NCBI RefSeq assembly: GCF_002087295.1
Contig: NZ_MWVI01000050.1
Coordinates: forward strand, 124,001-188,000
Direction: 5' to 3'
From: Vreelandella lionensis
Lineage (GTDB): Bacteria; Pseudomonadota; Gammaproteobacteria; Pseudomonadales; Halomonadaceae
Length of the DNA stretch: 64,000 bases
The translations under genes and the position numbers were made by a program. Positions 52,573 through 53,047 of this stretch are shown here, in pieces (position 1 is the stretch's first letter; every line of letters starts with the position of its first letter). Below the pieces are notes generated by a model. The model saw nothing but the letters and a program-made list of their open reading frames with translations, ran no database searches and was not told where the DNA came from.

Positions 52573-52650
52573 TGGCGGACCGGACGAGACTCGAACTCGC
52601 GACCCTCCGGCATGACAGGCCGGCATTCTAACCGACTGAACTACCGGTCC
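52573..52650 (-). tRNA. tRNA-Asp (GTC), copy 1
   Basis: Cloverleaf with acceptor GGACCGG / CCGGTCC, discriminator G and encoded CCA. Anticodon stem CCGGC / GCCGG holds loop CTGTCAT, anticodon GTC. T stem GCGAG / CTCGT. The variable loop AGGGTC is six bases, one more than in E. coli tRNA-Asp, so the gene is 78 rather than 77 bases. Identical to copy 2. Confidence 0.93.
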
Positions 52651-52696
52651 AAAGATGCATCACGGACTGCGTTACGTTTCCAGGGCACCAAATTAA

Positions 52697-52772
52697 TGGT
52701 GGGTGGTACTGGGTTCGAACCAGTGACCCCCAGCTTGCAAGGCTGGTGCTCTCCCAACTGAGCTAACCACCC
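52697..52772 (-). tRNA. tRNA with valine-type body and TGC anticodon, copy 1
   Basis: A 76-base tRNA with acceptor GGGTGGT / ACCACCC, discriminator A and encoded CCA. The body matches bacterial tRNA-Val(TAC) closely (TTAGCTCAG, GGGAGAGCACC, T stem ACTGG / CCAGT). The anticodon loop reads CTTGCAA, giving TGC, formally alanine, where tRNA-Val would have CTTACAA. The acceptor has G3-C70, not the G3-U70 pair that marks tRNA-Ala. Identity is therefore uncertain. Confidence 0.8.
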
Positions 52773-52823
52773 GGGGTATTGAAAGCTTATCGCTTATCAA
52801 TAGAACTACTTATTAAGTTATCG

Positions 52824-52901
52824 TGGCGGACCGGACGAGACTCGAACTCGCGACCCTCCGGCATGACAGGCCGGCATTCTAACCGACTGAACTACCGGTC
52901 C
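52824..52901 (-). tRNA. tRNA-Asp (GTC), copy 2
   Basis: Base-for-base identical to copy 1, including the six-base variable loop and encoded CCA. Part of a duplicated two-tRNA unit on the minus strand. Confidence 0.93.
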
Positions 52902-52971
52902 AAAGAAAGACACACTTACCATTTAAACTATTTATTAAAGCGGTTCAGAGGCGCTAAAACATTCACTTAAA

Positions 52972-53047
52972 TGGTGGGTGGTACTGGGGTCGAACCAGTG
53001 ACCCCCAGCTTGCAAGGCTGGTGCTCTCCCAACTGAGCTAACCACCC
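52972..53047 (-). tRNA. tRNA with valine-type body and TGC anticodon, copy 2
   Basis: Same as copy 1, including the CTTGCAA anticodon loop, but the T loop reads TTCGACC instead of TTCGAAC. The two copies are thus distinguishable and support the TGC anticodon separately. First of four tRNAs on the minus strand. Confidence 0.8.

Follow-up and report, generated by a model that had tools for sequence, protein, structure and literature searches.

Two tRNA genes written with the anticodon TGC, on the minus strand of a 64,000-nucleotide stretch of the Vreelandella lionensis draft genome (assembly GCF_002087295.1, contig NZ_MWVI01000050.1, positions 124,001 to 188,000; hereafter the window), are very probably (about 0.93, as judged from the sequence record) ordinary tRNA-Val(UAC) genes of a conserved Val-Asp cluster, which would have received a false anticodon base in an error-rich and partly misassembled draft. 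The original prediction had considered a real tRNA with a mismatched anticodon, hard to charge or prone to misread GCA codons; this proposal is not supported, given the error content of the draft and the occurrence of the TGC form in just one of 82 genomes of the genus. The coordinates of the cluster are collected in Table 1.

Table 1. Genes and spacers of the Val-Asp tRNA cluster (coordinates of the window).
Feature	Position	Strand	Basis or comparison
tRNA-Asp(GUC), 78 nt long instead of 77: variable loop lengthened by one G; C38>T at sequence position 39	52573..52650	minus	sequence comparison
Spacer of 46 bases following the second Val gene	52651..52696	minus	identity to the first Val-Asp spacer: 0.87 in G029, 0.78 in G015
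tRNA-Val(UAC) gene written with a TGC anticodon	52697..52772	minus	ARAGORN and Rfam; 35A>G, plus-strand base 52738
51-base Asp-Val spacer, with the same neighbours as in relatives	52773..52823	minus	identity 0.96 in G015, 0.86 in G029
Second tRNA-Asp(GUC), with the identical two changes	52824..52901	minus	sequence comparison
Spacer of 70 bases following the first Val gene	52902..52971	minus	identity to the last Val-Asp spacer: 0.96 in G015, 0.87 in G029
Second tRNA-Val(UAC) gene, likewise with TGC as anticodon	52972..53047	minus	35A>G at 53013; 59A>C at 52989

ARAGORN and Rfam each place four tRNA genes at 52573-53047 on the minus strand, to which ARAGORN gives the names Asp(gtc), Ala(tgc), Asp(gtc) and Ala(tgc). 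The middle anticodon base of the two genes called Ala appears as C on the plus strand, and both genes present G1-C72, G3-C70, U4-A69 and A73, that is, a valine-type body without G3-U70. The predicted combination of a valine body with a TGC anticodon was thus confirmed for both genes by ARAGORN, by Rfam and by comparison with the Val(TAC) genes of G029, a complete relative in one contig that served as tRNA reference. The copy at 52697-52772 departs from the G029 gene only by 35A>G (75 of 76 bases equal), and that at 52972-53047 by 35A>G and 59A>C (74 of 76). Equally correct was the statement that G3-U70 and A35 are missing, with G3-C70 and G35 standing in their place in both copies. Of the valine identity set, A73, G3-C70 and U4-A69 could be read directly in both genes and C36 is retained, A35 being the element lost as the genes are written. 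According to the bacterial valine identity set tabulated in PMC9976931, A35 is a conserved valine determinant. Because base 35 is judged to be a sequence error, this loss is not counted as a biological failure, and the genes are filed as miswritten tRNA-Val rather than as tRNA-Ala.

Two marks of a true tRNA-Ala are indeed absent from these genes: they have G3-C70 instead of G3-U70, and they do not occupy the 16S-adjacent place shared with Ile(GAT) in the complete relative. In G029, Ala(TGC) and Ile(GAT) occur as pairs, two of each gene, just after 16S genes. In the V. lionensis draft, no Ala(TGC) with a normal Ala body was present among the tRNA matches, nor was Ile(GAT) found among the 45 of 46 matches named by ARAGORN. 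The Rfam model gave no 16S match in this draft (the same search was positive in 9 of 14 control genomes), and the DNA of a G029 16S gene found none either, although it recovered six in G027 and parts in G015. Since 16S is unmatched in the draft and Ala(TGC) and Ile(GAT) follow 16S in G029, the lack of a true Ala(TGC) is attributed to the assembly, in which the rRNA operons are missing too. The idea that a window tRNA substitutes for the missing Ala(TGC) was considered and rejected, Ile(GAT) being missing too and no 16S rRNA having been found.

A genus-wide pattern search placed the TGC form in the V. lionensis draft and in none of the 81 other genomes. The exact 52-base TAC form was recovered from 78 of the 82 genomes, including 72 of the 73 that are at least 90% complete; the misses are the draft itself, two genomes of 66% and 71% completeness, and G012, which has TAC in both copies and a single D-loop difference. 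At 29 cluster loci from relatives, every Val-type gene called is Val(tac). When G012 is added to these (30 loci), base 35 is A in all 58 matched Val copies; A59 is likewise present in 59 of 59 matched copies of relatives, copies with differing neighbouring bases having been left unmatched in these counts and in those of the Asp loop. A functional anticodon-shifted tRNA would be expected to recur within the genus or else to stand on sequence that can be trusted, and what was found is one genome in 82, an error-rich draft. Beyond the genus, a degenerate Val-body TGC pattern run over the genome-contig collection matched a single locus, in Vibrio hannami. In the plasmid collection, a single record carried 80% or more of the cluster at one site, in an unannotated region; this best match, Halomonas sp. 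PA16-9, fits the Halomonas-like character of the genus. Viral contigs yielded no match to the TGC form, and a protein scan of them found no relative.

The quality of the draft bears directly on how a single odd base should be read. It amounts to 3.65 Mb in 100 contigs and is scored 80.1% complete, although relatives of similar size reach scores of 99 to 100%. With the coding sequences of G029 as ruler, 30 frameshift events, all of ±1, were counted in 47,657 nt of the window, affecting 17 of 43 genes, against 3 in 57,322, 6 in 54,921, 3 in 50,606 and 2 in 46,777 nt for four relatives measured in the same way; an alignment covering at least 70% of the gene was required, and of the 65 G029 reading frames 43 were kept for the window, 54 for G027, 52 for G039, 47 for G040 and 42 for G058. 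On contig C100, 31,505 nt yielded 24 events, all but three of them ±1, and 16 of 27 genes were affected; this count also dropped genes below 75% identity and covered 27 of 245 G029 frames, all on C100. The frameshift density of the draft is therefore about 0.6 to 0.8 per kb in the coding DNA measured. Substitutions point in the same direction. Among genome-specific single-base codon changes, counted at residues that are the same in five other genomes and with multi-change codons tallied apart (18 in the window), amino-acid changes numbered 50 of 645 in the window versus 15 of 685, 42 of 1277 and 38 of 1377 in relatives. The commonest of the 50 changes was A>C (12), with no single motif apparent by eye. 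The substitution spectrum of the window, taken against three relatives, singled out no one error type, true divergence being dominant. Alignment pieces shorter than 400 bases were dropped from the substitution, amino-acid-change and codon comparisons.

The tRNA set of the draft bears similar marks. Just 19 of its 40 distinct sequences equal that of a relative, 6 have single-base indels and 31 substitutions were counted, against 32 of 35 sequences equal to a relative in G027, 27 of 31 in G039 and 34 of 35 in G029, with no indels and with 4, 7 and 1 substitutions, respectively; these controls are sampled regions (30 for G029; for G027 and G039, 20 each and the cluster locus in addition), hold fewer Leu and Ser genes than the draft in the case of G027 and G039, and were each compared to two relatives, whereas the draft was compared to three, a bias in its favour. 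A sequence was treated as lacking a counterpart when it showed over 10 differences (1 in the draft, 6 in G029). Single-copy genes were also hit, with T54>C in Lys, a lost base in Gly(TCC) and five changes in Thr(GGT), and such damage would not be expected all within one living organism. Some changes common to copies in the draft may nevertheless be true variants (Glu 45g>t, which is also present in G039, and perhaps His 24 and Asn 60), and shared changes may therefore occur in the lineage. An odd tRNA called Asn(att), at 7032-7118 of contig C39 of the draft (locus L044), was also seen, with no counterpart among the G027, G029 and G039 tRNAs compared.

The inner arrangement of the cluster is unusual as well. 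In near relatives the 70-base spacer follows the second Val gene and the 46-base spacer the first, the reverse of what is seen in the window. The window thus reads Val-70-Asp-51-Val-46-Asp, whereas G015 reads Val-46-Asp-37-Asp-51-Val-70-Asp and G029 has spacers of 47, 35, 51 and 70 bases; relative to both, one Asp gene and the Asp-Asp spacer are gone and the other spacers are swapped. The first spacer of relatives best matches the last one of the window in 8 of 11 clusters (in one of them barely), those of G028, G014 and G034 being too diverged to place clearly. Four-gene clusters also exist naturally, as in G014, and copy number varies, with three Val genes at locus L050, five Asp genes at L048 and four genes in total at L052. 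The two Asp genes of the window have in common two changes that are missing from all 88 matched copies of relatives (30 loci).

These features suggest how one error could have come to stand in both Val genes. Assembly would very probably have collapsed the nearly identical Val copies, and the Asp copies too, so that one wrong consensus base on a collapsed node would appear in each copy. The path through the cluster would also have run in the wrong order, with the loss of one Asp gene and its spacer; the spacer swap is the outcome to be expected from a wrong walk through a graph with the Val copies on one node and the Asp copies on another. A step of this kind, either a shared consensus or a systematic error, is needed by the artefact reading because independent random errors rarely coincide. 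Collapse as the cause of the common error is inferred. A point against its simplest form is the T-loop difference (59A>C in the copy at 52972-53047), which had been correctly noticed in the original prediction and indicates that any merging of the Val copies was incomplete. This difference had been taken to make the copies independent observations, a view that did not hold: their 58-base 5' part, anticodon included, is identical, the Asp genes share their two changes, and the altered spacer order points to collapsed tRNA repeats. Since collapsed nodes pass one wrong base to each copy, the Val copies need not be independent witnesses.

The alternatives that accept the TGC anticodon as real have to account for the decoding of valine codons. 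In an alloacceptor shift, both Val(UAC) genes would have changed to UGC, the change being spread by gene conversion, to give tRNAs that decode GCA and GCG and are charged with Val, with Ala or poorly. Its presence in both copies and the anticodon shifts described in eukaryotic genomes in PMC3923123 speak for such an event, yet on the evidence of sequence comparison it seems scarcely credible. The normal tRNA-Val(TAC) whose presence elsewhere in the genome the original prediction had proposed to check was searched for; ARAGORN names 45 of 46 tRNA matches in this incomplete (80%-complete) draft, and neither Val(TAC) nor Val(CAC) is one of them. If TGC were real, no named tRNA gene of the draft would therefore read GTA or GTG, which make up 790 of 1196 sampled Val codons (66%), and it is because these codons are so heavily used that the lack of Val(TAC) argues for error and not for biology. 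Where three relatives agree, GTA still aligns to Val in 187 of 187 cases and GTG in 532 of 538, and GCA aligns to Ala in 217 of at least 225 (among the five commonest residues listed), with no trace of recoding in the codon sample of the draft. Against the shift stand also its absence from the 81 other genomes, the error-rich state of the draft, and the loss from both Asp tRNAs of C38, which PMC9976931 includes in the identity set of bacterial tRNA-Asp. Equally slight credence is given to a natural bacterial shift in which a Val-bodied tRNA would read GCA and GCG while a GUA/GUG decoder lies outside the assembly, with possible ambiguous Ala/Val decoding. Hardly better placed, and still very unlikely, is real recombination, by which unequal crossing-over would have shuffled the cluster and spread a real mutation to both Val copies, leaving a functional Val(TAC) unassembled. 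The variable copy number among relatives and the incompleteness of the draft are compatible with it, but the window order would probably need more than one exchange event, and the damaged state of coding genes and of the remaining tRNAs would be left unexplained. In addition, the two Val(TAC) genes found in G029 both sit in the Val-Asp cluster; G029 has two Val(GAC) genes as well (60 of 61 tRNA matches named).

The remaining alternative is a narrower form of artefact, whose odds sit inside those of the miswritten-Val explanation. It holds that a methylated base in the CTTACAAG context was miscalled as G, which would put an identical false base into both copies, and is considered unlikely, if clearly less so than the biological readings. 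An A-to-G change in both copies within an identical context favours it, as did the apparent rarity of CTTACAAG in a smaller sample (2 occurrences in 724 kb of the draft versus 11 in 400 kb of G029, with no matching excess of CTTGCAAG). The depletion hinted at by that sample was not borne out when 15 whole genomes were counted: the draft contains CTTACAAG 29 times versus 28 to 69 times in 14 relatives (second lowest of the 15), and CTTGCAAG 43 times versus 37 to 74. As both counts fall within the ranges of the relatives, with CTTGCAAG not raised, the octamer is not misread throughout; moreover, neither of the two changes common to the Asp genes is an A-to-G change, one being C>T and one an inserted G. 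A longer context or the hairpin structure of the tRNA could still underlie a miscall. The suspicion of a basecalling artefact at a modified base, voiced in the original prediction, was therefore sound as regards a sequencing artefact, but not as regards a systematic genome-wide replacement of CTTACAAG by CTTGCAAG. The data are better fitted by an error-rich consensus with collapsed tRNA repeats than by an octamer miscall.

An alloacceptor shift, if true, would be a striking change in decoding. Read as an artefact, the case is a warning that anticodon oddities in drafts need checks of frameshift rate, tRNA set and spacer order before biology is claimed, and that two repeat copies with one odd base do not amount to independent witnesses. 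Findings of broken genes or unusual ORFs in the window should likewise be treated as likely sequence errors (about 0.6 single-base frameshifts per kb).

Compared with known systems, the window genes share the anticodon letters UGC with the tRNA-Ala(UGC) that follows the 16S rRNA genes of G029. Unlike it, they carry G3-C70 and have no 16S neighbour, ARAGORN's label 'Ala' deriving from the anticodon. The Vibrio hannami locus (NZ_JARQZP010000006.1, L098:5675-5747) resembles them in having a Val-type 5' part with TTGCAA, but lies in a 16S-23S spacer by a Lys tRNA and shows an Ala-like 3' end when read by eye. This Val-like TGC tRNA is preceded by the Lys tRNA and then by a stretch, Glu-like by eye, that ARAGORN does not call. 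It may be a hybrid or reflect a misassembled rRNA operon, and is an oddity separate from the window genes. With the frameshift-laden Nanopore consensus drafts described in PMC9262707, the V. lionensis draft has in common single-base, gene-breaking indels and a completeness of 80% at near-full genome size; it differs from that description in that substitution errors are indicated too, and its platform may be another. The closest known counterpart is the tRNA-Val(UAC) of the Val-Asp cluster of the genus, which in the five relatives aligned to the window sits at the corresponding location between colinear flanks. The window genes match it in place and flanks, and differ from it in the TGC anticodon, in 59A>C in one copy and in an inner order with permuted spacers.
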